DNA of 64,000 nt from Candidatus Symbiothrix dinenymphae (GTDB lineage Bacteria; Bacteroidota; Bacteroidia; Bacteroidales; Azobacteroidaceae), in assembly GCA_001417715.1 (NCBI GenBank), contig BBRT01000312.1, forward strand, positions 1 through 64,000, read 5' to 3'. Below the pieces are notes generated by a model. The model was given only the letters and a program-made list of their open reading frames with translations, was not told the DNA's origin and did not search any database. A program made the position numbers and the translations under genes. Below, piece by piece: positions 3,947-61,772 of this stretch. Position 1 is the first letter of the stretch. Every line of letters begins with the position of its first letter.

Positions 3947-4013
3947 TGTCATGGCGGGCTTGACCCGCCATCCCCTGCTATACAAGGGATTGCGGGTCAA
4001 GCCCGCAATGACA
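3947..4013. repeat. Palindromic element, short full copy (67 bp)
   Basis: Two inverted arms, each itself a hairpin (GCGGG-CTTGA-CCCGC), flank a short centre. The left arm carries changes (GGCGGGC / CCGCCA) relative to the usual arm. The element fills the gap between the adaptor and pump genes of one operon, so it is probably transcribed between them. Confidence 0.9.
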
Positions 4014-5043: not shown

Positions 5044-5098
5044 TGTTTTATACCTTATTATATTGTTTGTTTTCAAATCATTCCGATTCCTTTCGAGA

Positions 5099-5125
5099 GA
5101 TTGCGGGTCAAGCCTGCAATGACAG
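5099..5125. repeat. Half copy of the palindromic element
   Basis: A single arm (GATTGCGGGTCAAGCCTGCA plus ATGACAG) lies in the leader of the RND operon, between its promoter and the adaptor start. One base differs from the consensus. Confidence 0.8.
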
Positions 5126-5317: not shown

Positions 5318-6970
5318 ATGCTTACAAACAACCAAGTAAAAATACTGCTCAGCGACATTGAAAATGAACGAGTTGAGCGCACGACATCAATAAAAGATAC
5401 TGATAAGTATGCGAGAGCCGTTTGTGCTTTTGCAAACGATTTGCCCAATAAGAAGCAGCCCGGTTACCTTTTCCTTGGTGCGTGTGATGATGGTACGTTG
5501 AGCGGATTAAAGGTTACGGATAAATTATTGCGTAACCTTGCCGGATTGCGTTCGGATGGAAATATTTTGCCGCAGCCTGCTCTGATGGTCTATAAATTAT
5601 CTTTCCCGGAGGGAGATATTGCGGTTGTGGAAGTGCTACCAAGTAAACACACGCCCGTTAAATATAAAGCAACGACCTACATTCGCATCGGAGCCAGACG
5701 GGGCGAAGCCAATGGGGAAGAAGAAAGAATCCTGCGCGAAAAGAGCACGATAAAAGAGCAAACTTTTGATACGATGCCCTGTTTGCAGACAACCATTGAT
5801 GATTTGGATTTGGTCTTGTTTAAAAACGACTATTTGCCCAATTTTGTAACAGAAAAGGTGTTAAAAGGGGATAGGAGAGATGTAAAGCAACAATTATCAT
5901 CTTTAAAACTGTTCGATACGACACATAATTGTCCTACCGTTGCCGGTTTATTATTGATAGGCAAAGACCCTGCGCACATTCTTTTTGGGGCTTATGTCCA
6001 ATATGTTAAGTTTGCCGGCAAAAATCGGGCATCTAAAATTTTGAACGAGCGTCAGTTTTCGGGAAATCTGCTGTCGATGTTGAAAGAGTTGGAAGCATTT
6101 ATCAAATACACCATTCAAACTCAACGTCCTGTGTTTGTGAGTGTTTTACGTGAAGAAATGCGCATCAATTATCCGTATGAAGCCCTCCGGGAGCTTGCGA
6201 TGAACATGATTATGCACCGAAACTATGAAACTAATTCTCCGGCAAAATTCTATGAATATCAAGATAGAATAGAGATAGATAATCCCGGCAATCTGTATGG
6301 CAAAGTGCGTCCGGATAATTTTCCGAATGAGAGCGACTATCGTAATCCGGTACTTGCAGAAGCAATGAAAACGCTCGGCTATGTCAATCGGTTCAGTCGA
6401 GGTATAAATATGGTGCAAGAGATTTTGGAAGAAAATAAAAATGGGTTAGCAACATTCTCTCTTGATGATATAACCACCTTTAAAGTGACGGTGGTGAATG
6501 CTGACCCTGAAGCAGAAAATGAAGCAGAAAACGAAAATGAAGCAGAAAATGAAGCAGAAAGTGAAGCAGAAAACGAAAATGAAGCAGAAAATGAAGCAGA
6601 AAGTGAAGCAGAAAATGAAAATGAAGCAGAAAATGAAGCAGAAAGTGAAGCAGAAAACGAAAATGAAGCAGAAAGTGAAGCAGAAAATGAAAATGAAGCA
6701 GAAAATGAAGCAGAAAGTGAAGCAGAAAATGAAAATGAAGCAGAAAATGAAGCAGAAAAATTAGCTACAAGACAGCAAAAAATAATAGATTTATTCAATA
6801 CAAATAATACCATTTCAAGAGAAGTTATCGCCAAACAATTGGGAGTGAGTGACTCTTCTGTTTATCGTGATATTAAGTCTCTTAAAGAGCAAGGCATTAT
6901 AGAGCGTATTGGAGGCGATAAAGGAGGTTATTGGAAAGTAAAAATACAAATAGAGGGCAAGTTCAATTAG
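5318..6970 (+). CDS. AlbA_2-domain / ATPase-like / HTH transcriptional regulator
   Basis: The 550-residue protein has an N-terminal AlbA_2 (Schlafen-AlbA) domain (about residues 10-140, with E-rich ENERVERTTS and GYLFLGACDDG). A middle region resembles the divergent HATPase of this family (about 280-390, YEALRELAMNMIMHRNY and RIEIDNPGNLYG). Next comes a Glu/Ala/Asn tandem-repeat linker (398-481), then a C-terminal DeoR-like winged helix (about 488-530, ISREVIAKQLGVSDSSVYRD). Such proteins are usually called putative DNA-binding regulators; ligand and targets are unknown. It is a single-gene unit with its own promoter. The long repeat linker is unusual for the family. Confidence 0.82.
   Translation: MLTNNQVKILLSDIENERVERTTSIKDTDKYARAVCAFANDLPNKKQPGYLFLGACDDGTLSGLKVTDKLLRNLAGLRSDGNILPQPALMVYKLSFPEGDIAVVEVLPSKHTPVKYKATTYIRIGARRGEANGEEERILREKSTIKEQTFDTMPCLQTTIDDLDLVLFKNDYLPNFVTEKVLKGDRRDVKQQLSSLKLFDTTHNCPTVAGLLLIGKDPAHILFGAYVQYVKFAGKNRASKILNERQFSGNLLSMLKELEAFIKYTIQTQRPVFVSVLREEMRINYPYEALRELAMNMIMHRNYETNSPAKFYEYQDRIEIDNPGNLYGKVRPDNFPNESDYRNPVLAEAMKTLGYVNRFSRGINMVQEILEENKNGLATFSLDDITTFKVTVVNADPEAENEAENENEAENEAESEAENENEAENEAESEAENENEAENEAESEAENENEAESEAENENEAENEAESEAENENEAENEAEKLATRQQKIIDLFNTNNTISREVIAKQLGVSDSSVYRDIKSLKEQGIIERIGGDKGGYWKVKIQIEGKFN
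6509..6759 (+). repeat. In-frame coding tandem repeat (EAENEAESEAENEN units)
   Basis: About six units of up to 42 bp encode Glu-Ala-Glu-Asn/Ser-rich sequence inside the regulator gene. All units are multiples of three, so gain or loss of units changes linker length without breaking the frame. The nucleotide repeats are nearly identical, as expected of a recently expanded slippage tract. Confidence 0.9.
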
Positions 6971-19122: not shown

Positions 19123-19164
19123 AGAAATAATTATGAATTATGGTTTTTTTTGCAAAAAAAATTA

Positions 19165-19172
19165 TACCTTTG
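19165..19172 (+). promoter_or_regulatory. -7 box of the transcarbamylase gene
   Basis: TACCTTTG lies 17 bases before the ATG at 19190. Its position excludes the upstream in-frame ATG at 19133 as the start. Confidence 0.65.
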
Positions 19173-19189
19173 TCGCTGATAAAATGAAT

Positions 19190-20140
19190 ATGAAGACATA
19201 TACTAATGTAAAAGATTTAGGCGACCTGAAAGCCGCCGTGAAAGAGGCTCTCGAAGTGAAGCAGAACCGCTTTGCCCACAAAGCACTCGGTGAAAACAAG
19301 ACACTGCTGATGGTGTTTTTCAATTCCAGCCTGCGCACCCGACTGAGCACTCAAAAAGCGGGTATGAACCTCGGTATGAACACAATGGTGCTCGATGTCA
19401 ATCAGGGCGCGTGGAAATTGGAAACCGAACGCGGCGTGGTGATGGACGGCGACAAATCGGAACACCTCTTGGAAGCCATTCCCGTGATGGGTTGCTATTG
19501 CGACATCATTGGCGTGCGCGCCTTTGCCACCTTTGAAAACAAGGCGGATGATTACAGCGAAAAAATCATCCAACAGTTCATCCAACACTCCGGCAAACCC
19601 GTTTTCAGCATGGAAGGTGCCACCACACACCCCTTACAGGCATTCGCCGACCTGATTACGATTGAGGAGCACAAGACCGTAGCACGCCCAAAAGTCGTTT
19701 TGACATGGGCACCGCACCCCAAAGCATTGCCGCAAGCCGTGCCCAATTCGTTTGCCGACTTTATGAACGAGGCTGATGTGGATTTCGTCATCACGCACCC
19801 CAAAGGCTACGAATTAGCCCCGCAGTTCGTGCGCGACGCCAAAGTGGAATACGACCAGGCGAAAGCCTTCGCCGGAGCCGATTTCATCTACGCCAAAAAC
19901 TGGTCAGCCTTCGCCGACCCCAATTACGGAAAAATCCTCAGCAAAGATACGTCATGGACGGTGGACACAGCCAAAATGAACTTGACAAACAACGCCAAAT
20001 TCATGCACTGCCTCCCCGTGCGCCGCAACATGATAGTGACCGACGACGTGATAGAAAGCCCCCAATCCATCGTAATTCAAGAAGCAGCCAACCGCGAAAT
20101 CTCGGCGCAAGTGGTGATTAAGCGGATGCTGGAGGGGTAA
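19190..20140 (+). CDS. argF': N-succinyl/N-acetyl-ornithine carbamoyltransferase (Bacteroidota type)
   Basis: The 316-residue enzyme carbamoylates an N-acylated ornithine in the Bacteroidota arginine pathway. It has the phosphate-binding motif FFNSSLRTRLSTQ (residues 43-55), HPLQAFADL, the HCLPVRR motif near the C-terminus and the family ending QSIVIQEAANREIS. The start at 19190 gives the same length and numbering as the Bacteroides fragilis succinyl enzyme as I remember it. At position 90, where that enzyme has Pro and the acetyl-type enzymes have Glu, this protein has Ser, so the acyl group is uncertain. Confidence 0.9.
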   Translation: MKTYTNVKDLGDLKAAVKEALEVKQNRFAHKALGENKTLLMVFFNSSLRTRLSTQKAGMNLGMNTMVLDVNQGAWKLETERGVVMDGDKSEHLLEAIPVMGCYCDIIGVRAFATFENKADDYSEKIIQQFIQHSGKPVFSMEGATTHPLQAFADLITIEEHKTVARPKVVLTWAPHPKALPQAVPNSFADFMNEADVDFVITHPKGYELAPQFVRDAKVEYDQAKAFAGADFIYAKNWSAFADPNYGKILSKDTSWTVDTAKMNLTNNAKFMHCLPVRRNMIVTDDVIESPQSIVIQEAANREISAQVVIKRMLEG

Positions 20141-20159
20141 GGTCAAGCCCGCAATGACA
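20141..20159. repeat. Half arm of the palindromic element
   Basis: GGTCAAGCCCGCAATGACA starts directly after the transcarbamylase stop codon. It also creates a spurious upstream ATG for the next gene. Confidence 0.75.
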
Positions 20160-25653: not shown

Positions 25654-25753
25654 TGTCATTGCGGGCTTGACCCGCAATCCCCTGAAAAGGAACCAAATGT
25701 TGGGCGACAGAGCGATGTGGAACAAGGGATTGCGGGTCAAGCCCGCAATGACA
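25654..25753. repeat. Palindromic element, full 100-bp copy
   Basis: Two 30-base inverted arms (each a TTGCGGG-CTTGA-CCCGCAA hairpin, ending in TGTCA outward) flank a 40-base centre. The element fills the gap after galE. It may act as a terminator or processing site between galE and the permease gene. Confidence 0.92.
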
Positions 25754-25768
25754 ATAAAGATAAAATGT

Positions 25769-26770
25769 ATGAATGCAAACTTTGACAAACAGATGCGGCA
25801 AGTTATTTTCCTGCTGGCGATTATCTTGCTGGCGGGGCTGATTATTGGGCAGTTGGCTTATTTTGTCAGCTCGTTTCTTGGCTCGGTTGCCATGTATGCG
25901 TTGTTGCGCACGCCGCACCGCTATTTGAGGCGCAGAGGATGGAATAACACGCTGGCTACAAGCACTTTAATGATTGCTACATTGCTGGCTTTCGTGCTGA
26001 TTTTGGGTGGATTTTCGGCTTTGGTCTATTCCACTGCGTCCAATTTTGATGTTCAAATGTTCAAAGTGGAGTTGCATAATCTGGGTGATTGGATTTTCGA
26101 CCGTTGGGGCTACAATATTTTCTCGCAAGACGTTGTGCAAAAGGGACTTGAACACATTGGAAAAATCGTCCCAAGCATCGTTTCAACTGCCGGAAGCGCG
26201 ATGACCAACCTCATCATGATGCTGTTTGTGCTCTATTTCATGTTGCAGGATTCCGAACCGATGGAGCGCGGACTCAGCGAATATCTCCCGTTTGACACCG
26301 CCACCAACCGCCAACTGAAAGCGGAGGGCAACAATATGATTTTGGCAAATGCCGTTGGTGTGCCGCTGATTATGGCTTTGCAAGTGATTTCGGCGGGCAT
26401 TGGCTATTGGCTCTTCAATGCGGGCAACCCCGTCATCTGGGGCATTCTGACAGGCTTCGTCGGGCTGATTCCGGTGGCAGGAACAGCCATTATGTGGCTA
26501 CCGCTGGCAATCAACCTGATACTGGGCGGCTCGGTGTGGAACGGCGTCGCGCTCATCATCTACGGTGCGCTGGTGGTCGCCAACATGGAGCGCGTGGTGC
26601 AACTGACTTTTCTGCGAAAAAAGGCAAACCTGTACCCCCTCGTCACGATTTTTGGCGTCATACTGGGGCTGCAAATTTTCGGCTTTTGGGGTGTCATTTT
26701 TGGCCCGCTACTACTCTCCACCTTCTTTTTCTCCGTAAAAGTCTATAAAAAGGAATACGGGAAGACATAA
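25769..26770 (+). CDS. AI-2E/PerM-family membrane permease
   Basis: The 333-residue protein has about eight membrane helices. N-terminal helix pairs (VIFLLAIILLAGLIIGQL) are followed by a periplasmic helical region, then the conserved GFVGLIPVAGTAIMWLPLAI and GVILGLQIFGFWGVIFGPLL motifs. The start at 25769 is chosen because the frame upstream reads through the palindromic element. Relatives export small molecules or sodium; the substrate here is unknown. Confidence 0.88.
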   Translation: MNANFDKQMRQVIFLLAIILLAGLIIGQLAYFVSSFLGSVAMYALLRTPHRYLRRRGWNNTLATSTLMIATLLAFVLILGGFSALVYSTASNFDVQMFKVELHNLGDWIFDRWGYNIFSQDVVQKGLEHIGKIVPSIVSTAGSAMTNLIMMLFVLYFMLQDSEPMERGLSEYLPFDTATNRQLKAEGNNMILANAVGVPLIMALQVISAGIGYWLFNAGNPVIWGILTGFVGLIPVAGTAIMWLPLAINLILGGSVWNGVALIIYGALVVANMERVVQLTFLRKKANLYPLVTIFGVILGLQIFGFWGVIFGPLLLSTFFFSVKVYKKEYGKT

Positions 26771-27005: not shown

Positions 27006-28583
27006 TCAAAGCACTGTAAATCGTTTGCTAATGGTCAAAGCAACTCCGCTGGTGCTTCTTCCAAAAAAATCACCATCATCGGCTCCCACAGACAGCTTAA
27101 TATCAAAGTCTTGCAACTTTTCCGGCTGATAAATCAAATCTAATCCGGAGGCGAATCCCGAATGAATTTCTTTGAATGGGAGGTCGTAACGCCCCCAGTT
27201 TTGTCCGCTCGTCAGCAGCAGGCGGTATTTGAACTCCGGCAAAAAATAGCCCTCTATGCCCAGATGATAGGCGATGAGGCGATTGCCTTTGAAATTAACC
27301 GCACCATCGGTGTTGTATTCGGGCGACAAAAAAAGCGGCGTTCCTAATGTTTTGCCGTAGTGGGACGGTCCTTGAGGATAGTCGCCATTGACGTAGTAAT
27401 TGTCTTTCCCATTGCCTTTTGCGATTTGGTCGTGATGCTCCGGGTGCTCCCCTTTGGGCGCAATGTCGAAATAGTAAAGAACCGTACCGCTCTGGTATTT
27501 TGTATATACAAATTCTGCCACAGCACCCGAAAGCAACGATTTTGTACGCGACTGCCACTCCACGCCAATCAAATTGTCGCTCCAATTGTAGAAAGTCATC
27601 CCCGAACCATCATCAAAAAAATGTTGGACATAGACACTTAATTGGCTGCTTTTGTCGGCGCGAGCTGTCCCTTTCGGGTCGTCATTGCGGGCTGTCCCCC
27701 CCGGAGTGTCATTGCGGGCTTGACCCGCAATCCCCCCCAACTTAATATCATACTTAAACAACCACGCGCCCCACTGCGACCCCGAAACGTATGGTTTGTC
27801 ATTCGCACTTGCCCCTTCACCACCCTCTTTGGCAAGCACCACGCGGACTAAATCTCCAATGCTTCGCGGCTGTTTAAACACCTCCCCATTGGTTTGATAG
27901 AGCGTGCCGCCCCATTGCGCAGCGTGAACCAAACCAAACATAAACTGCTGACGGTGTTTGTGTTGTATATCGCCAAAGCGAAAATAAATGGATTTGTTGT
28001 GTGACAAAACATCGGATGCAAATTTTTTCTGCGACGGGGCAAAATTGGATTCCAAATATTCGCTGTCCAAATATTTCCCCACAGCAAAATCGCCTTTTAT
28101 GAAAAAATTGCTTCGCGCGAAAGGAACCGGAATAAACTCATTGAACCCCATCTTAATCTGCGGAATAGGGCGAGCATTGTTGGAATTGACCATGTCACCG
28201 GAGCTTAAATGCGGATTCAGAAATGAAACATAATCTTCGCGCATACCAATATCCAAGCGGATTTTTTTCCAGTCGAGGCGACCGTATAACTGCTGGATGC
28301 GGTAGTTGTCCGCCGCCGAAAACTGTCCGCCAAGCCCGTCAATCCCTGCCTCAAACGACCAATCATCATTCAATTTTTGCTCATGAAACGCACCGGCTCG
28401 AAGATACAAATTGTTGTCATTCAGCGAGTTAATCCCCCAACTGTGATTGACCAACCAAAAAGGCATCTGCTCGCTCGAAAACGCGCCAAAAGCCGATGAT
28501 TGCACGGTGGTTTTCGTCTGCCCAAAACCGGACTGACTACATATATATATGTATAGAAGAAAAAATACAGTTTTTTGCCTCAT
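27006..28583 (-). CDS. Wzi-like outer-membrane beta-barrel (capsule assembly family)
   Basis: The 525-residue protein has a signal peptide (FFLLYIYICSQSGFGQ). Many amphipathic strands have aromatic edges (PFWLVNHSWGINSL, DDWSFEAGIDGLGG, LTISKRFTVL at the end), typical of the Bacteroidota Wzi-family barrel. About 30 residues (near 283-313, including IAGQARND) are encoded by copies of the palindromic repeat and are not part of the family fold. It follows a lipoprotein gene after 1 bp and rpsP before that, so the three form an operon. A link to surface polysaccharide is family knowledge only. Confidence 0.72.
   Translation of the reverse strand: MRQKTVFFLLYIYICSQSGFGQTKTTVQSSAFGAFSSEQMPFWLVNHSWGINSLNDNNLYLRAGAFHEQKLNDDWSFEAGIDGLGGQFSAADNYRIQQLYGRLDWKKIRLDIGMREDYVSFLNPHLSSGDMVNSNNARPIPQIKMGFNEFIPVPFARSNFFIKGDFAVGKYLDSEYLESNFAPSQKKFASDVLSHNKSIYFRFGDIQHKHRQQFMFGLVHAAQWGGTLYQTNGEVFKQPRSIGDLVRVVLAKEGGEGASANDKPYVSGSQWGAWLFKYDIKLGGIAGQARNDTPGGTARNDDPKGTARADKSSQLSVYVQHFFDDGSGMTFYNWSDNLIGVEWQSRTKSLLSGAVAEFVYTKYQSGTVLYYFDIAPKGEHPEHHDQIAKGNGKDNYYVNGDYPQGPSHYGKTLGTPLFLSPEYNTDGAVNFKGNRLIAYHLGIEGYFLPEFKYRLLLTSGQNWGRYDLPFKEIHSGFASGLDLIYQPEKLQDFDIKLSVGADDGDFFGRSTSGVALTISKRFTVL
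27655..27737. repeat. Palindromic element copies inside the Wzi-like gene
   Basis: A full arm (27707-27737) and at least one partial arm (27680-27700) lie in tandem within the coding region and keep the frame open. They encode repeated ARND-type peptides. The surrounding protein is otherwise continuous. Confidence 0.85.
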
Positions 28584-28584
28584 C

Positions 28585-29013
28585 TCAAAAATCTATGAAA
28601 TTGTACGTTATGCCATCCCGTTCCAAAACTAATTTTGAGGAGGTATGCTGCACGATATAAAAAATGGCTTTTTGCTCTCCACCACCCCACGGCGTTGTCT
28701 TATAGTCATAACTCTTGGCAAGCGAAATATGGACGGAGTCGCCATGCGAAAAACCAAAATAGCCCATCCACATATCCTGCATCCATGTCATCTCTCCATC
28801 AAACCGCGTGCAAGAAAATAGCGAGCCACGATGAAAATTAAAAAAAACAGTGTCCACTTGTTGAACCTCTCCCGATTGATTGTGCATCGTGCGCAATTTC
28901 CACATCCCATCAATATCAATATTGGGATAGTCGTGACCGGCACACGCCGCAAACAACACAACAAAGACAGCCACAGAAAAAAAATCCGTGACCATCCATT
29001 TAATCTGTTTCAT
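28585..29013 (-). CDS. Lipocalin-like lipoprotein
   Basis: The 142-residue protein has an N-terminal hydrophobic segment ending in lipobox LFAAC. A small beta-barrel pattern follows: IDGMWKLRTM at the first strand, VFFNFHRGSLFSC, and SSKLVLERDGITYNFIDF at the end. This resembles Bacteroidota lipocalin-like lipoproteins, whose ligands are unknown. An internal start (MVTDFFS) is also possible. It sits 15 bp after rpsP and 1 bp before the Wzi-like gene. Confidence 0.6.
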   Translation of the reverse strand: MKQIKWMVTDFFSVAVFVVLFAACAGHDYPNIDIDGMWKLRTMHNQSGEVQQVDTVFFNFHRGSLFSCTRFDGEMTWMQDMWMGYFGFSHGDSVHISLAKSYDYKTTPWGGGEQKAIFYIVQHTSSKLVLERDGITYNFIDF

Positions 29014-29028
29014 TCGGAGTGCAAATAA

Positions 29029-29784
29029 TTATTCGGCGGCCGGAGTTTCCTCTGCCGGAGTAGCCGGAGCTTCTTCCTCAACCGGAGCAGTAGCTTCTTC
29101 CTCAACCGGAGCAGTAGCCTCTTCCTCAAGCGGAGCAGCAACCTCTTCCTCAACCGGAGCCGGAATCTCTTCAACCACCGGAGCAGCAACCTCTTCTGCC
29201 GGAGCAGCCGTAGCCTCTTCCTCAACCGGAGCCTCAACCTCTTCAACAACCTCTTCAATCGGCGCAAGAGCCTCTTCTACCGCAGTTGCTTCTTTAGCCT
29301 CTTGCTTAGCCGCCGCCACTGCCACTTCGGCTTTTTTAGCGGCTACCGCATCTGCCTTGGCTTTGTTAGCGGCTTTTTCTGCCTCCAAAGCGGCTTTTGC
29401 GGCGGCTTTTTGTGCCTCACCCGCCTTGCCTAACTTGGCGTCGATGGCGGATACTTTGCCGTCCTTCCATGCTTGGAATTTCGTTTCAGCAGCTTCTTCG
29501 CTGAAAGCCCCTTTTGCCACGCCACCTAAGAGGTGTTTCTTCAAGAGCACCCCTTCGTCTGAAAGGATATTTCTCGCGGTATCGGTCGGTTGTGCACCCA
29601 CCGTCAACCAATACAAAGCTCGGTCAAAATCCAAATTTACTGTAGCCGGATCTGTGTTGGGATTATACGTCCCGAGCCGTTCGATAAACTTTCCATCCCG
29701 TGGAGCTCTGCTATCTGCGATCACGATGTGGTAAAACGCGTACCCCTTGCGACCATGTCTTTGCAATCTAATTTTAGTTGCCAT
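29029..29784 (-). CDS. rpsP: 30S ribosomal protein S16 with a long acidic C-terminal extension
   Basis: The first 80 or so residues are a normal S16 ([38 protein letters not shown]). Total length is 251, against about 80-90 in most bacteria. Bacteroidota S16 proteins are known to carry extensions. Here the added region has a Lys/Ala-rich helical part (about 125-175) and then about ten degenerate APVEEEA-type repeats. The repeats should form a negatively charged flexible tail on the small subunit. Confidence 0.93.
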
Positions 29785-29821
29785 TTTTGAAATAATTTTT
29801 AATTGTTTGCATTAGCGGGCG

Positions 29822-29829
29822 CAAAGGTA
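29822..29829 (-). promoter_or_regulatory. -7 box of the rpsP operon
   Basis: TACCTTTG on the minus strand, 37 bases before the rpsP start at 29784. Confidence 0.65.
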
Positions 29830-29871
29830 AGTAAAAAATATGAATTATGAATTATGTTTTGTGATTTTTTT

Positions 29872-32800
29872 TCATTTTTTCCCTGTCCCTTTCCGAAACA
29901 GCCCCCTGAAACTGCTTGCTGACCGCTTGTAGCTCAGCCCTATGCCCTGCGTCGTGGGGGCTTGCTCATAATATTGGCTGTTGGTTTCGTTGTAGGCTTT
30001 CAGGAAGATGCTGCGGGTGCGGGATAGTTTGTAAGCTATGTCGAAATCGCCGGTGAAGTTTTGCTGTTTGCTGGGGTCGTTGCTGTAACCTACTGTGCCA
30101 TTGACTATTAGGCGGTTGTCGAACAGTTGCGTGCTCACGTTTACGTCCATATCCACATTGTTGAAATCGTCTTTGCTGCGGAGGTCGGCACCTATCGACC
30201 AGTTATTGCCGAGGGCGTTGGAGAGGGCTTTGCTGAGTTGTCCGGTGGTCAGCGAAGCCAGCGAGGAGAGCACTTGACCGGAGGTGAAATTGTCCGTAAA
30301 ACTTGTGGCTTCCGTTTTTTGGACGGGTGTGAAACTGTTGAAAGTCAGCAGATAAGCCATTTCCATCACTTTCAGGTTGTCGGAGTAGAGCAACCCCTCC
30401 AATTTGCGGTTCACCTCGTCCGATTCGTTGGGCAATTTCACGTCGTAAGTCATTGACATCTTGTCCGTATTGCCCTGCACCGCGAGTTCGCAATTGACTG
30501 CCACCTTGGGATTGGCTACGAGATTGGCAAACGATGGGTCGAGGGTTTCCAAGTCGGCGCGGGTCTTGTAAATGGCTGTCATATCGAAAGTTGTGGCGAG
30601 TGGGTCGCCGTGAAAACCCAACTTGCTGCCGCTTTGGATGGCGAATGATTTGGGCACCATTTTGGCTACCGACACGGAGATGTTGCCGTTCTCCGCCTCG
30701 TAGTCGCCCGTCACATGCAGCGCGGCGGGTGCCATCATGTCGTAAGCCACGTTAATTGTGCCATTACCGGACATTTGCACCGCATCGCCCGTTGCCCGAT
30801 TGAGAACAACTCCCACCGTGAGTGCGGGGTCGGTATAAAACATGAATTGCGCTTTCAGAGGGAACGTGGTGGTGGCGGGGGCTTTGACTTTGACGGAATC
30901 AACCGTCTTCGTGAGTGGTTTGCCGGTCGAATCCACATAGATAATATTGTTGTAGCGTGCTGCCGTGCTTGCCGAATAGGGGATGTTGACCGTCACTTTG
31001 GAATTGTTGCCGTGCGTGACGGTGCCGGTCATCAGCCAGTCGTTTTTGCTCTTTTTGATGTTCATCAAGCCGTTGAGCCGCAGAGTGCCGTACAACAGGC
31101 TGTCGGTCTGCTTGGGATTGTTCAGCACTTGGAAGTCGCTCATAGTGAGGTTGATTTGCGGGTTGAGGTCGATAAACCAGTTGTGCGTAATCGTGCCGTT
31201 GGCAACCAGCGTGTGCCTGTTTTCATCGCGGACGGTCACTTTGTTCAGCGTGATAGCCTCCGGAGTGATTTGGATGGAGTCGTCGAGCGTATATTTGGTG
31301 TGGAGCATCGACACACCCACCTGTGCGCCATCAAAATAGACCATGCCATGCACTTGGGGCTTGCTCATGGTGCCCGAAAAGTTCAGTTTGGTCGCGATTT
31401 TGCCGTTCAAAGCGTAGAGCATATCGGCGGTGGCTTCGGAAAACCAGCTGAGTTCGATGTCCTGAATGTTTGCCGTCACCATCATGGAGTCTTTTTCTGG
31501 CAAAAGCACGCCGGAAACGACCGACGGCGTGGCACCTTCTTTGCCCAGATGGGCACGCACAAACACGCTGTTGCGTTCGCCGCTCATCCCGCTGGTCACG
31601 CGCAAATCGCCCAATTCTCTGCCCGCATACACAATATTTTTCACAGAAAATCCGCGCGACAGGATGAATGGTTTGGCGAGCAGTTGCCGCATCGTAATCC
31701 GCCCGTCAGCCAATCCTGACAGCGGAAATCCCATTTTCGCCGTATTGATAAGTGTGCGCAATTGAAACTGCGACACGTCAATCGTCAGGCTGTCGTCGCG
31801 CAAAGTGGATGCCGTGCCGTTGATTCGGACAGCCTCGGAGGGGCTTTCGGTCATATTGACGGTTAAATCCTGAATGGTGTAACGCCCGTTTTGCACCACC
31901 ACTTTCGCGGGGTTCACGGTAAACCAGGTGTCGTTGAAAACCCATATCGTGGGGTTGAGCGTGATATTCATGTCGGGAATGGTTTGTCCATCCTTTATAA
32001 TCAACTCAATATCAGCATCTAACGAGCCATCAAAAAAATAATTGCCGGCGTAGTTTTCAATATTGACAATGACGTGCGGAAAATCACCCACCTTAGTCAG
32101 CGAGAGCGACATTTGGATGGTGTCCGACCCGGCAAAGCGCGTGTAGGCACTCGCCGAAATCCGCATTTTGTCGCCCACATTACTGTATTTTCCCATGAAC
32201 AGAATGGAGTCGGGGATGCCTTGGGGCAAGTCCAAAAGGTCTGCCAGCGCGGTCAAGTGGCTCACATCCACATTAAAATGAATGCTCTCATCAAATGCGT
32301 CTTGCAACTCGGGCTGCCCCTCAGCGTCAGGAAAAAACATCGGAAAATTGGCTTTAAACACCTCCGCCAAGCCCGTGTAAGTAAATGTCCCATAGACAGT
32401 TGCGTTGATAAACGGCGAGGCAACATCCAACGTTTTGTACGCACTGTCCGCCTCCTGATACGTCAGATTAAGCGGCAAACGGGGGTCGCGACTGTCCACA
32501 TACAGCCACCTGTTTTCGCCCTTCAACTCCACCTCCGCATGAATTTGGGAATAGGCATATCCCTTATAATCAAACCGTTGCACATCCACTTCCGCCTCCG
32601 CATTAAAACCACCTTTGGGCGAATAACTACCTTTGGCGTGCAAATTCAAATCAGCCAATCCAAACCCAACATCCGGCATCAAAACCCCTACATCACAACG
32701 AGTTACGCCACCAACCGCATCAAACAGGGCAGCACCCGTCAATAAATCATACCCCCCTGCCCCATCCACAAGAAAATCCCCGATATTGCTCTGCAACAAC

Positions 32801-33942
32801 ACATTAAATGCAAAATCGGACAATGTACCGCTCGCACTACCCGCCAAGCTGATTGTATCCGGCAACGCCGAGATGTCATTGCGGGCTTGACCCGCAACCC
32901 CCTGAAACAACCCCTCAACTCCATTCACAACCAACTCCTTCAACTCCAACCGAACAGGCGAAGCCTCCAAATGCTCAAAATCCTGAATACGCCCACCAGC
33001 CCGCAAATAAACCTGCTCCCCATACTCCACCTGCAAAGCATCAAACACAATCTCAGGCAATGTCCCGCTGAAATTCCCCGAAAAAGTCAGCACCTCCGTC
33101 AAATCCCTGACCGCAGGCACCCACATTGCAATGTCGCGAAAATCAAGGTGCCCCATTAGCGACATTTGATATTCCGGCAGGGGATTGCGGGTCAAGCCCG
33201 CAATGACAGTGGGAGTGGCACCCGGTACCCGATAACCGGCACCCGGTAACTGGTAACTGGTAACTGGTAACTGAAGAACGGAATGTGGTAATTCCAGCAC
33301 AAAGTCATTGATTGTCAGTAGACGAGCATCCAAATTGGCTTGAAATTGCAGATTTTCCAGTTTCAATCCTCGACTTTCGGCGAATGACAGATGTTTCAAA
33401 TTCACATCCAAATTTTCGAGGTTGGTAGATTTTGCATCTATATTTGCCTGAAAATCAGTTAGATGTACAGCCAAAGAGTCCGCTGTGTAATTTATTCGCC
33501 CACCGTTCAGGGCGATGTTTCGCAGTTCAATCCGCAACGAAATTGCCGTTGTGTCTGAGGCATTGGGGGCAAAAGCATCAATGAGAAATTGGAAATTGTA
33601 GGTAGAATCACGCGGATTTTGAGCAATATTAACCACAAAATCATCCAAATCCACCGATGTAATCAGCAGGCGGCTGTTCAACATCTCCCAAATATCAAAA
33701 CTCGCCGAGAGTGAGGACGCGTATAACAAGGTATCTTGCTCAATATCTTCGACATACACCGCCTCCAATTGCAGCCGGTTGAACGAGCGAAACGTCAACT
33801 TGCCGATACTCATACGGTTATGCGTGGTAGCCATCACCGTTTGCAACGCAAAATCCTTAATCGTCTGCTGCACAGACGGCAACCACAGCGCACCATAAAG
33901 CAACCCCGCCAAACCAAGCAACACGGAGAAACTCCACAACAC
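29872..33942 (-). CDS. tamB: TamB-like translocation/assembly protein
   Basis: The 1356-residue protein has an N-terminal membrane helix (VLLGLAGLLYGALWL) and a very long repetitive beta structure, ending in the DUF490/TamB domain (about the last 350 residues, FDNRLIVNGTVGYSND and the end ITQGIGLSYKRS-like region). TamB bridges inner and outer membranes for outer-membrane assembly or lipid transport. The only start in frame is GTG at 33942, but the reading frame stays open 11 codons further up and encodes WNIIKKGLHI, which looks like the natural N-terminus. Two palindromic repeat copies and a short CTGGTAA repeat lie in frame inside. Confidence 0.87.
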   Translation of the reverse strand: MLWSFSVLLGLAGLLYGALWLPSVQQTIKDFALQTVMATTHNRMSIGKLTFRSFNRLQLEAVYVEDIEQDTLLYASSLSASFDIWEMLNSRLLITSVDLDDFVVNIAQNPRDSTYNFQFLIDAFAPNASDTTAISLRIELRNIALNGGRINYTADSLAVHLTDFQANIDAKSTNLENLDVNLKHLSFAESRGLKLENLQFQANLDARLLTINDFVLELPHSVLQLPVTSYQLPGAGYRVPGATPTVIAGLTRNPLPEYQMSLMGHLDFRDIAMWVPAVRDLTEVLTFSGNFSGTLPEIVFDALQVEYGEQVYLRAGGRIQDFEHLEASPVRLELKELVVNGVEGLFQGVAGQARNDISALPDTISLAGSASGTLSDFAFNVLLQSNIGDFLVDGAGGYDLLTGAALFDAVGGVTRCDVGVLMPDVGFGLADLNLHAKGSYSPKGGFNAEAEVDVQRFDYKGYAYSQIHAEVELKGENRWLYVDSRDPRLPLNLTYQEADSAYKTLDVASPFINATVYGTFTYTGLAEVFKANFPMFFPDAEGQPELQDAFDESIHFNVDVSHLTALADLLDLPQGIPDSILFMGKYSNVGDKMRISASAYTRFAGSDTIQMSLSLTKVGDFPHVIVNIENYAGNYFFDGSLDADIELIIKDGQTIPDMNITLNPTIWVFNDTWFTVNPAKVVVQNGRYTIQDLTVNMTESPSEAVRINGTASTLRDDSLTIDVSQFQLRTLINTAKMGFPLSGLADGRITMRQLLAKPFILSRGFSVKNIVYAGRELGDLRVTSGMSGERNSVFVRAHLGKEGATPSVVSGVLLPEKDSMMVTANIQDIELSWFSEATADMLYALNGKIATKLNFSGTMSKPQVHGMVYFDGAQVGVSMLHTKYTLDDSIQITPEAITLNKVTVRDENRHTLVANGTITHNWFIDLNPQINLTMSDFQVLNNPKQTDSLLYGTLRLNGLMNIKKSKNDWLMTGTVTHGNNSKVTVNIPYSASTAARYNNIIYVDSTGKPLTKTVDSVKVKAPATTTFPLKAQFMFYTDPALTVGVVLNRATGDAVQMSGNGTINVAYDMMAPAALHVTGDYEAENGNISVSVAKMVPKSFAIQSGSKLGFHGDPLATTFDMTAIYKTRADLETLDPSFANLVANPKVAVNCELAVQGNTDKMSMTYDVKLPNESDEVNRKLEGLLYSDNLKVMEMAYLLTFNSFTPVQKTEATSFTDNFTSGQVLSSLASLTTGQLSKALSNALGNNWSIGADLRSKDDFNNVDMDVNVSTQLFDNRLIVNGTVGYSNDPSKQQNFTGDFDIAYKLSRTRSIFLKAYNETNSQYYEQAPTTQGIGLSYKRSASSFRGLFRKGTGKK
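32874..32910. repeat. Palindromic element arm inside tamB (first)
   Basis: One arm (TGTCATTGCGGGCTTGACCC and on to CCCCTG) is read in frame on the minus strand as a GVAGQARND-type peptide. The frame is preserved. Confidence 0.88.
33178..33208. repeat. Palindromic element arm inside tamB (second)
   Basis: One inverted arm is read in frame on the minus strand as VIAGLTRNP. Next to it, 33222-33275 holds further short repeats (ACCCGGTA and ACTGGTA units) that encode SYQLPGAGYRVPG. Together they look like a 30-residue inserted loop. Confidence 0.88.
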
Positions 33943-34006: not shown

Positions 34007-34034
34007 TGTCATTGCAGGCTTGACCCGCAATCCT
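34007..34034. repeat. Half palindromic element after rpoD
   Basis: One arm with a single change lies 7 bp beyond the rpoD stop codon, between rpoD and the tamB promoter region. Confidence 0.8.
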
Positions 34035-34040
34035 CGGCGT

Positions 34041-36162: not shown

Positions 36163-36262
36163 TGTCATTGCGGGCTTGACCCGCAATCCCCTGTTCTACA
36201 TAGCCCTGTTGCCCAACATTCGTCTCCTTTGCAGGGGTTTGCGGGTCAAGCCCGCAATGACG
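36163..36262. repeat. Palindromic element, full 100-bp copy
   Basis: Two inverted arms flank a 40-base centre. The right arm contains the last codons and the stop of the ABC ATPase gene. Two adjoining copies of TATTGACTTCTTTTT (36118-36148) lie between it and the permease start. Confidence 0.92.
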
Positions 36263-36989
36263 TTTCCTCATATAATTTTTTCCCTGTCAAATTGATGAAT
36301 AATTCATCCAGATTGCGGGATTTTTCGTCCAACAAATCTTCTAATTTGCCTTCTCTCAATATTTTGCCTTCGTCGATGATGATGATGTGGTCGCTGCATA
36401 GCGATGAGGCTTCTTCCATGTAATGCGTTGTCAAAATCAAGGTCGTTTCGCCCTTGTCTTTCAACGATTTAAGGATGTTCCACAAATCCATCCGCGAGTG
36501 CGGGTCAAGTCCGGTCGTTGGTTCGTCCAAAAAGAGAATTTGCGGCTGGTTGAGCAGTGCCACAGCCAATGCCAGGCGTTGCTTTTGTCCGCCTGAGAGC
36601 GTGCCTGTCATGGATTTTTGCTTGCTCTGCAACCCTGTCTGTTCGATGACCTCATTCACCCGCTCATCGCCCAATTCAAAGAAAGCGGCAAAGAGGCGCA
36701 GGGTTTCATAAACGGTCAATTTCTCGGCAAAGCGGGTTTCTTGCAACGATAACCCGATGATAGTGCGGAGTTCGTGCTCGTGTTTTTGCCATGTTTTGCC
36801 CTGAATGAGAATTTCGCCGCTGTCAGGCTTTTTCAGTCCTTCCATCATCTCCACCAGCGTGGTTTTTCCCGCACCGTTGGGACCGAGCAACGCCACAAAC
36901 TGCCCCGCCGGTATTGCCAGCGAGATTCCGCGCACTGCTTTCACGTCCTTGAACGACTTCTCAACGTTTTTGACTTCTATCTGCAACAT
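36246..36989 (-). CDS. ABC transporter ATP-binding protein
   Basis: The 247-residue protein has Walker A GPNGAGKTT (about residue 36), signature LSGGQKQRL, Walker B ILFLDEPTTGLD and switch His in LILTTHYMEEA. It powers the permease at 34990-36108. The final residues (TSLRA) and the stop codon are supplied by an arm of the palindromic element, so the original C-terminus after FINLTGKKLYE has been replaced. Confidence 0.93.
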   Translation of the reverse strand: MLQIEVKNVEKSFKDVKAVRGISLAIPAGQFVALLGPNGAGKTTLVEMMEGLKKPDSGEILIQGKTWQKHEHELRTIIGLSLQETRFAEKLTVYETLRLFAAFFELGDERVNEVIEQTGLQSKQKSMTGTLSGGQKQRLALAVALLNQPQILFLDEPTTGLDPHSRMDLWNILKSLKDKGETTLILTTHYMEEASSLCSDHIIIIDEGKILREGKLEDLLDEKSRNLDELFINLTGKKLYEETSLRA

Positions 36990-41817: not shown

Positions 41818-42242
41818 GCTAAATCTTTTTCTCAGATGCTATTTTTTGCAGACGGTGTTTTGTCCCGCAGGGTGGGGTGTTAAAAAGATGGATGTTTTAT
41901 GAATATTGTTCGTTCATCATTTGTTTTTATCCCGTAGGGATTGTAGCTCGGTAGAAAATAGAATCGCCCCGCCCCCATTTCAGCATCCCGTAGGGATGCA
42001 ACCGATTGCGGATTATGTTGCATCCCTACGGGATGCGGGGAGAAGGAGAGGTATGATTTTCTACCGAGCTACAATCCCTACGGGATAAAAAACAGAACGC
42101 AAAAATTTCATCCGATTGTAATCTTTTTGACAACCCACCCTGCGGGACAATAAGAGCCGCACAGTTCTGTCCATAATGGGACTGCGCTCTGGGCAAGTCT
42201 GCGGGACTTGCAAAAAATAGCACCTGAAAAAAAGATTTAGCC
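41818..42242. mobile_element. MITE-A, long copy (425 bp)
   Basis: Terminal inverted repeats begin GGCTAAATC and end GATTTAGCC, extending about 34 bases with mismatches. The inside is a large palindrome built on ATCCCGTAGGGAT and TCTACCGAGCTACAATCCC motifs. No coding capacity is credible. It separates the nucleoside kinase gene from the eno promoter; its right end lies 7 bp from the kinase stop codon. Two shorter copies are at 48050 and 53598. Confidence 0.85.
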
Positions 42243-44815: not shown

Positions 44816-44898
44816 TGTCGTTGCGGGCTTAACCCGCAATCCCCTGCCAAGTGAGTCGCTTCCGTAGGAGGGGATTGCGGGTCAAGCCCGTGATGACA
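44816..44898. repeat. Palindromic element, full copy (83 bp), plus a partial arm
   Basis: Two inverted arms flank a 25-base centre. A further partial arm (GGGCATGCCCGTAATGACA, 44911-44929) lies just before the Lrp-type start codon. Confidence 0.88.
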
Positions 44899-45451: not shown

Positions 45452-45551
45452 CGTCATTGCGGGCTTGACCCGCAATCTCCTGTCCTAAATCGCTCTGTAG
45501 CTCGGCATTCGGCTCCTTTTCAGGGGATTGCGGGTCAAGCCCGCAATGACG
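45452..45551. repeat. Palindromic element, full 100-bp copy
   Basis: Two inverted arms flank a 40-base centre, between the Lrp-type gene and the small-membrane-protein cluster. It is followed by two copies of CCCTGCATTTT. Confidence 0.92.
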
Positions 45552-47916: not shown

Positions 47917-48055
47917 TGTAACCCCTGAATTTGACCGTGCTTTAAAGAAATTAGGGAAGAAATATCATTCTCTAAAAAGTGATTATCTTGCGTTTTTGTC
48001 TGAATTAGAACAAAATCCAACGCTGGGCGATGAGATATTGCCTCATTGTGGCTAA
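47906..48055 (+). pseudogene. RelE-like toxin truncated by MITE-A
   Basis: The frame MNFNVTPEFDRALKKLGKKY, then LKSDYLAFLSELEQNPTLGD, is the N-terminal half of a Bacteroidota RelE-family toxin (full length about 110 residues). It ends at residue 49 inside the terminal repeat of MITE-A, which begins at 48050. The C-terminal catalytic part is missing, so the toxin is probably dead and its antitoxin is left alone. Confidence 0.75.
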
Positions 48056-48327
48056 ATCTTTTTTTCAGGTGCTATTATTTCGCAAACGGTGTTTTATCCC
48101 GTAGGGACAAATATACATAGCCTTTTATCCCGTAGGGATTATAGCTCGGTAGAAAAGCCAATCCTCACCTCCACCCTGCATCCCGTAGGGATGCAACCGT
48201 TTGCGGATGATGTTGCATCCCTACGGGATGCAGGAATGGGGGAGGCGTTCCATTTCTACCGAGCTATAATCCCTACGGGATAAAACACCGTTTGCGAAAT
48301 AATAGCACCTGAAAAAAAGATTTAGCC
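48050..48327. mobile_element. MITE-A, 278-bp copy (second)
   Basis: Terminal inverted repeats GGCTAAATC / GATTTAGCC flank a near-perfect palindrome with CCCGTAGGGA motifs. It differs from the copy at 53598-53875 at only about three positions and lies in the same orientation. It interrupts the RelE-like toxin gene and has removed the left half of the next cassette's terminator hairpin. Confidence 0.88.
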
Positions 48328-53597: not shown

Positions 53598-53875
53598 GGC
53601 TAAATCTTTTTTTCAGGTGCTATTATTTCGCAAACGGTGTTTTATCCCGTAGGGACAAATATACATAGCCTTTTATCCCGTAGGGATTATAGCTCGGTAG
53701 AAAAGCCAATCCTCACCTCCACCCTGCATCCCGTAGGGATGCAACCGTTTGCGGATAATGTTGCATCCCTACGGGATGCAGGAATGGGGGAGGCATTCCA
53801 TTTCTACCGAGCTATAATCCCTACGGGATAAAACACCGTTTGCGAAATAATAGCACCTGAAAAAAAAATTTAGCC
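53598..53875. mobile_element. MITE-A, 278-bp copy (third)
   Basis: Nearly identical to 48050-48327 and in the same orientation, with the GGCTAAATC / GATTTAGCC ends. It lies inside a remnant of a longer copy, whose right half continues at 53876. Together with the copy at 48050 it brackets cassettes 2-10. Confidence 0.88.
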
Positions 53876-61742: not shown

Positions 61743-61772
61743 TGTCATTGCGGGCTTGACCCGCAATCCCCT
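61743..61772. repeat. Half palindromic element in a leader
   Basis: One arm (TGTCATTGCGGGCTTGACCC onward) lies between the promoter and the start at 61812 and would fold in the mRNA leader. Confidence 0.85.

Follow-up and report, generated by a model that had tools for sequence, protein, structure and literature searches.

Palindromic elements that lie in frame within protein-coding genes are best known from Rickettsia, as recounted in PMC10969869. Two of these Rickettsia palindromic elements (RPEs), RPE-4 and RPE-6, have been placed in the superfamily of CGTC-tagged repetitive extragenic palindromic sequences (REPs) described by Di Nocera et al. in 2013 (PMC3733652). In that account, such REPs carry an unpaired tag at the end (CGTC, or else TGTC or CCTC), a stem of 8-9 base pairs (bp) starting with AT, and a loop of 4-5 nucleotides (nt), and family 2 has an 8-bp stem and a 5-nt loop; the short, unpaired tail is mostly, not always, CCA, and inverted (HH) pairs predominate. 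The same source reports them from five phyla, including Bacteroidetes, with intragenic copies in several species; most REPs are intergenic, and, as far as its account goes, the CGTC-tagged ones have no dedicated transposase. The present work concerns a repeat of this type in a 64,000-nt stretch (the window) of Candidatus Symbiothrix dinenymphae, a member of the Bacteroidales, where one short arm lies between genes and also, in frame, inside a gene for a Wzi-like capsule assembly protein and twice inside tamB. The window comes from contig C312 (BBRT01000312.1) of assembly GCA_001417715.1, called G000 below.

The element is of a known kind; what sets it apart is its unusual abundance inside genes. 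As judged from the alignments and counts below, a CGTC-tagged REP has very probably multiplied in this Bacteroidales genus, landing both inside genes and between them, with the in-frame copies being tolerated and then decaying.

The Repeat and Its Copies in Two Genes

The arm, TGTCATTGCGGGCTTGACCCGCAATCCCC, is 29 nt long; counting partial copies, the window has it at about 12 places (17 half-sites), in line with the roughly 14 full or partial copies counted in an earlier sequence-only reading. At up to six mismatches it has six matches in the window and none in each of 10 dinucleotide-model shuffles of it. That reading had also placed the arm inside the Wzi-like gene and twice inside tamB with the frame kept, which the following positions bear out.

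27006 to 28583, minus strand: gene for a capsule assembly protein, Wzi-like (PF14052), 525 residues.
27681 to 27735: copy within the Wzi-like gene, comprising a half arm at 27681-27693 and an exact 29-nt arm at 27707-27735 (plus strand), reading IAGQARNDTPGGTARND on the gene strand.
29872 to 33942, minus strand: gene for TamB (PF04357), 1356 residues, called with a GTG start.
33180 to 33208, minus strand: tamB site 1, an exact 29-nt arm reading VIAGLTRNP.
32874 to 32902, plus strand: tamB site 2, an arm reading VAGQARND, with the core at 32877-32898 and one mismatch in it.

Both open reading frames (ORFs) run open across the inserts, which would be translated as GIAGQARND in Wzi and as VAGQARND and VIAGLTRNP in TamB. 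By eye, a further decayed unit may lie in the Wzi-like gene at about 27655-27680.

The hairpin has an 8-bp stem (ATTGCGGG / CCCGCAAT), with A-T pairs at the first two positions, and the 5-nt loop CTTGA. A TGTC or CGTC tag opens nearly all of the listed arms, the exceptions being those at L093 8054, L104 6666, L110 14496, and L105 6812. An intact unit in this species has 100 nt and consists of two inverted arms with the tags outward; 17 of the 19 listed pairs measure exactly 100 nt, and those listed in G006 have different offsets, for example 63 or 89. Among 36 neighbouring arm pairs less than 160 nt apart, 27 are inverted with tags outward, two show the opposite inversion, and seven are on the same strand. 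Folded as single-stranded DNA, the copy at 25654 reaches -38.8 kcal/mol against a shuffle mean of -13.7. By tag, stem, loop, and pairing, the repeat thus looks like a CGTC-tagged REP element and fits CGTC family 2.

Two variants of the unit were seen. In four single arms (L100:3401, L095:7839, L105:6812, and L091:9518) a second tag stands in place of the tail, so that the core is followed by GAC... and a near-perfect short palindrome results; these are probably pairs that have lost the spacer and one hairpin. Other intact pairs, such as L083:12181 and L087:9965, have inverted or common flanks past the tags (e.g., TTCAGCCCGAAC), which suggests that some members of the family have a longer unit.

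Abundance in the Genome and Within Genes

The assembly comprises 3.52 Mb in 346 contigs and is 91% complete. Across it the core has 377 matches at up to three mismatches, and the reversed pattern has none. Genic and intergenic copies, whose counting the sequence-only reading had proposed, were compared in a sample made up of the window and of 37 stretches centred on the first copies listed, 730 kb once 5 kb of overlap had been removed. Among its 136 copies, 76 lie wholly within predicted genes, 54 are intergenic, and six overlap a gene edge, a larger genic share than the window had implied for an element whose very name says extragenic. As the ORFs around some of the 76 are short or doubtful, strict filters were also applied: an ORF of at least 150 codons, a copy at least 25 codons from either end, and a coding signal on both flanks. 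The strict set holds 55 copies in 43 genes, with identical numbers after the gene caller was retrained, and no two sampled copies have an identical context in common. If the sample ratio holds, the strict intragenic copies of the whole genome would number about 150, spread over about 120 genes.

The host genes are diverse. Pfam scans covered 38 proteins, namely 36 of the sample's decorated proteins together with Wzi and TamB, and all except three had a match. The hosts identified include IleRS, AlaRS, ClpX, DnaX, a UvrD-type helicase, SecDF, YidC, MurG, and LpxB, and also QueA, RsmF, glutamate synthase, and an NADH dehydrogenase subunit. In ClpX the insert is positioned between the zinc finger and the AAA domain, and in LpxB (RHCGLD four times) and MurG the arm has grown in tandem and in frame.

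Two further arrangements were noted. At L107:7472-8227 a single ORF has an RnpA and a YidD domain, separated by a REP copy, as if the element had joined two adjacent genes. The GIAGQARND insert occupies an identical site in three related large genes (L100:6629-9115, L117:10024-12489, and L117:12560-14989; Pfam has no match for the two that were scanned), so that duplication of this gene family probably followed the insertion.

Other species of the genus and outgroup genomes were counted by the same procedure, with presence in a predicted gene as the loose rule and the strict filters as above. The 25 copies in G005 divide into 21 genic, four intergenic, and no partial ones (16 strict), the 34 in G058 into 20, 13, and one (15 strict), and the 17 in G010 into 13, three, and one (five strict). 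A second repeat of G010, CGTC-1, is genic in 19 of 29 cases, 16 of them strict, in stretches centred on its copies. Under the loose rule, the genomes from other families gave six of 33 genic copies (G102, 48 counted) and three of 14 (G056, 38 counted). None of these 47 copies is strict, compared with 55 of 136 in G000 (Fisher p ~4e-9), in a control whose power is lowered by short outgroup stretches (1.7-12.5 kb) and a caller trained on shorter ORFs.

It is very improbable that the intragenic copies are an artefact of pseudogenes, assembly joins, or gene calling through repeats. The assembly is a draft, some short called ORFs at copies (31-92 residues) are probably spurious, and a stop occurs within the MurG matches of a few relatives; yet a place in the strict set requires at least 150 codons and a coding signal on both flanks, and IleRS, AlaRS, ClpX, MurG, and DnaX are open and have the expected domain matches. 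Moreover, the inserts of ClpX and of a GDP-mannose 4,6-dehydratase-like protein are present in two separate genomes, and the outgroups have no strict copy, albeit on shorter contigs.

Empty, Occupied, and Decayed Sites

The sequence-only reading expected the extra peptides to be missing from orthologues. This turned out to be so in the other relatives examined, and the nearest one, G005, has remnants at the Wzi site and at both TamB sites. For Wzi, 17 of the 20 fetched loci (L061-L080) were aligned; L061 is the species' own copy, L079 and L080 were left unused, and one truncated and one wrong ORF were dropped. The insert is absent in all 14 usable relatives besides G005, where a short in-frame remnant of about 17 nt of the arm (GGGGATTGCGGGTCAAG) is found. 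For TamB, 22 of the loci fetched from 29 relatives were aligned, and VIAGLTRNP of site 1 occurs in none of them. The site 1 region holds a CGTC-1-type pair in G010 (CHSRAGGNP...SRLRGND) and, by eye, a decayed arm in G005; a decayed arm is also seen by eye in the G005 alignment at site 2.

Other hosts extend the picture. For a deiminase of the PAD_porph family, 14 relatives were aligned: at site 1, G010 carries an insert, as G000 does, and the other 13 lack it; site 2 is occupied in G000 only, with a deletion there in G005 and G010. The first region of MurG holds inserts in G000, G002, G005, and G006, and the remaining 11 of its 14 aligned relatives have it empty; it is unaligned with respect to the solved structure 3s2u. 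A full 33-residue unit (CHCGLDPQSPEKEPNVGQQSDVGQGIAGQARND) lies in an 849-residue protein of G000 and in none of six aligned relatives. The IleRS insert corresponds to a 13-residue gap against the solved structure 8c8w, and in the alignments LpxB and others have orthologues lacking the insert. Among 80 named relatives of AlaRS, none has the core (up to five mismatches) or the peptide CGLDPQ, the closest being that of Bacteroidia bacterium MS502-62, at 78%. The inserted peptides would presumably occupy loops.

Some sites are common to several species. The insert is at an identical place in G000 and G005 in ClpX (93% identity) and in the dehydratase-like protein (89%). In the ClpX linker, CGTC-2 is found in G000 and G005, and CGTC-1 in G010. 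DnaX contains CGTC-2 twice in G000 and a different repeat, with the peptide VGATLAVA, in G010; another gene, which we take to encode a TrmH/SpoU-like methyltransferase, has CGTC-2 in G005 and both the CGTC-1 and CGTC-2 types in G010. In the alignments, the sites are empty in most relatives examined and hold remnants in the nearest, and the equivalent regions of sister species have received different repeat families. For the last of these there is a precedent in Rickettsia, where different RPE groups are described at one locus (PMC3767692).

The VGATLAVA repeat belongs to a third family of G010 (L307, L297), which encodes this peptide in DnaX, in RsmF, and in a further protein, in regions that hold REPs in sister species. 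The further protein is presumably GcvP-like.

Reading Frames and Decay

All reading frames of the arm had been taken to be open in the sequence-only reading; four of the six are, and two contain TGA. More relevant is the 100-nt pair, which is mostly open in one frame: across the intact pairs, frame 0 is open in 30 of 34 readings, and the other frames in 12 and none. Since a given frame is open in about 0.45 of readings when pairs are shuffled, openness as a whole is not unusual, and the inverted repeat accounts for its being concentrated in a single frame of both strands.

The strict copies show a marked frame bias in G000, with 46 in frame 0 (CHCGLDPQS or GIAGQARND) and nine in the other frame used; the corresponding ratios are 16:0 in G005, 8:3 in G006, and 8:7 in G058. 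The openness of pairs in frame 0, and the spacer stops met in the other frame, explain much of the 46:9 ratio. As proof of selection at the protein level, the bias is weakened by these stops and by its absence in G058.

With regard to decay, the 55 strict intragenic copies have 38 changed stem pairs, of which 28 are broken and none compensated. The 54 intergenic copies have 20 changed pairs, 11 broken and five compensated, and these five may partly reflect one variant arm. At the peptide level, 14 of 57 changes in 91 strict copies from four genomes are synonymous, where the 54 intergenic copies of G000 lead one to expect about 4.4 of 26; this gives no clear signal of purifying selection on the insert peptide. 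The intragenic copies are thus decaying: their stems break uncompensated, and their peptide is without clear conservation.

These results bear on the proposal that intragenic copies owe their retention to a useful peptide or mRNA hairpin, for instance a flexible linker, a translational pause, or an RNA stability element. The frame bias in G000, G005, and G006 and the fact that identical regions are hit in several species speak for such a role; but the bias comes at least in part from spacer stops and is missing in G058, selection on the peptide is not evident, genic stems break uncompensated, and the hosts are functionally diverse. This explanation is considered improbable, and the copies would instead be tolerated insertions rather than selected modules.

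Origin and Spread

In the scenario preferred here, a mobile REP would land widely, genes included. With one frame of the 100-nt pair usually open on both strands, a landing in frame would add about 33 codons at most in the case of a pair, or about 10 for a single arm. Copies would survive if they fell in linkers or variable regions, even of essential proteins, and would otherwise presumably be purged, so that tolerance would be the cause of retention. The survivors would then decay as unconstrained sequence, with hairpins breaking, peptides drifting, adjacent residues being trimmed, and some arms duplicating in tandem and in frame.

Several points weigh against this scenario. At TamB site 2 there is no net change in length with respect to G005, G010, and other nearer relatives, and several others are shorter; on this point the sequence-only reading needs correction, as no net insertion is seen relative to the nearer relatives. 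The net length of AlaRS differs by only about +1, and no gap is needed at the site when it is compared with a solved cytoplasmic AlaRS (5knn), which implies that native residues were replaced or trimmed. As the net gain is often less than one arm, some cases resemble replacement more than insertion. By eye, no target-site duplication is consistent across 19 pairs, and the arm tail is mostly CCCCTG or near it instead of CCA, a departure from the consensus and not from a strict rule. In G006 the 61 copies are mostly non-genic (17 genic, 42 intergenic, and two partial; 11 strict). Finally, the assembly is a draft of 346 contigs, and the share of 76 in 136 comes from a sample centred on listed copies, not a random one, with genes called by an in-house hexamer model that called 91% of bases coding and may thereby inflate it.

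The cases of TamB site 2 and AlaRS, together with the inserts common to sister species (ClpX and the GDP-mannose dehydratase-like protein), are also what one would expect if the peptides were ancient parts of the host proteins from which the repeat had been copied out. This origin is scarcely credible, because one DNA sequence occurs in unrelated proteins in four reading frames and both orientations, and these cannot all be ancestral; relatives are without the insert (14 of 14 besides G005 for Wzi, and all 80 for AlaRS), and empty sites refute the idea for several hosts case by case.

How the REP was spread is another question. Neither the 50,697 phage records nor the 72,556 plasmid records searched contain a match to the 100-nt unit. 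The one transposase family searched, Y1_Tnp (PF01797), typical of REP-associated tyrosine transposases (RAYTs), has no match in G000 or G058. Y1_Tnp matches and copy number show no clear association, because the family is absent in copy-rich G058 (96 copies) and abundant in copy-poor G004 (eight copies, 12 matches); the copy-rich G005, G006, and G010 have some matches. Three other congeners, G008, G024, and G026, are free of copies. RAYT mobilization was thus rejected as a general link, since Y1_Tnp does not simply follow copy number, and may yet apply to G005, G006, and G010. REP doublets forming hairpins (REPINs) are RAYT-mobilized inverted hairpin pairs of the GTAG type, with a Y1 transposase; an identity of the present repeat with these was also rejected, given its TGTC/CGTC tag instead of GTAG and the lack of a Y1_Tnp match in G000.

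A bolder view is that the REP population has here turned mainly intragenic and coding-tolerant, with more than half of the sampled copies genic in four of five species (not in G006), and that successive families reseed the same regions of essential proteins as a continuing source of new protein sequence. This is possible, if rather doubtful.

Other Features of the Window

The remaining copies of the repeat in the window are the following.

25654 to 25753: intact 100-nt pair, tags outward; the right arm overlaps the auto-called start of ORF 25697-26770.
36163 to 36262: intact 100-nt pair; the right arm partly overlaps the called end of ORF 36246-36989.
45452 to 45551: intact 100-nt pair, intergenic.
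44816 to 44898: shortened pair with a 55-nt offset, intergenic.
3947 to 4013: shortened pair with a 39-nt offset; one arm is the CATGGCGGG variant.
5096 to 5124, minus strand: single arm with one core mismatch.
20141 to 20159, minus strand: half arm directly past ORF 19133-20140.
34007 to 34035, plus strand: single intergenic arm by the 5' end of tamB.
61743 to 61771, plus strand: single intergenic arm.

Repeats of other kinds are also present. Between 47640 and 52475 a 63-nt block ending in GTTGTAACTTTGC occurs nine times at a spacing of 339-790 nt, and a small called ORF lies within about 110 nt after eight of the nine; the array looks like a series of small genes, each with its own putative promoter. 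A second long inverted-repeat family (GCATCCCGTAGGGATGC...) is found at 41924-42091, 48050-48327, and 53598-53875, the two 278-nt copies being 99% identical. The ORF at 29029-29784 (minus strand) resembles ribosomal protein S16, with a long C-terminal extension rich in Ala, Glu, and Pro, and the ORF at 5318-6970 contains a long 12/18-nt tandem repeat at 6466-6831.

Comparison with Known Systems

These repeats should add short peptides to many proteins, essential ones included. They amount to a natural experiment on the tolerance of proteins to foreign peptides: a fifth of one genome yields dozens of decorated proteins, sister species show the same sites empty, occupied, or decayed, and the outgroup samples are without strict intragenic copies. 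They are equally a natural experiment on the spread of CGTC-tagged REPs without a known transposase. Within listings of open-licence papers, no report of intragenic CGTC-tagged REPs in Bacteroidales was found past the mention of Bacteroidetes in PMC3733652.

With REPINs the repeat has in common the inverted pairs of hairpin arms that form a genomic population, and it differs from them in that REPINs are of the GTAG type with a Y1 transposase. The likeness to the CGTC-tagged REPs, as these are described in PMC3733652, includes the TGTC/CGTC tag, the 8-bp stem beginning with AT, the 5-nt loop, inverted pairs, intragenic copies, and, as far as the Y1_Tnp search goes, the lack of a dedicated transposase; unlike them, the present repeat has 76 of 136 sampled copies in predicted genes and a tail that is mostly CCCCTG, not CCA.

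The parallel with Rickettsia palindromic elements, already drawn in the sequence-only reading, is supported by the alignments of Wzi, the PAD_porph deiminase, MurG, LpxB, and IleRS. As there, insertion is in frame into unrelated ORFs and missing from orthologues. RPE-1 to RPE-3 are likewise in-frame palindromic elements, nearly half of the first-described ones lying within ORFs (PMC10969869, PMC3767692), but they are longer, about 150 bp (PMC10969869). RPE-4 and RPE-6, of the CGTC type, come nearer: like the present repeat, they are short palindromes in frame in unrelated genes, with different groups near one place in orthologues and an ATGAC motif (PMC3733652). Since that source places both in the CGTC-tagged superfamily, the parallel is not only right but closer than first stated, the link being common membership of that superfamily. 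The bearers differ in kind, for Rickettsia are obligate intracellular alphaproteobacteria (1.28 Mb in R. japonica), whereas the present hosts form a Bacteroidales genus whose genomes range from 1.0 to 5.4 Mb.

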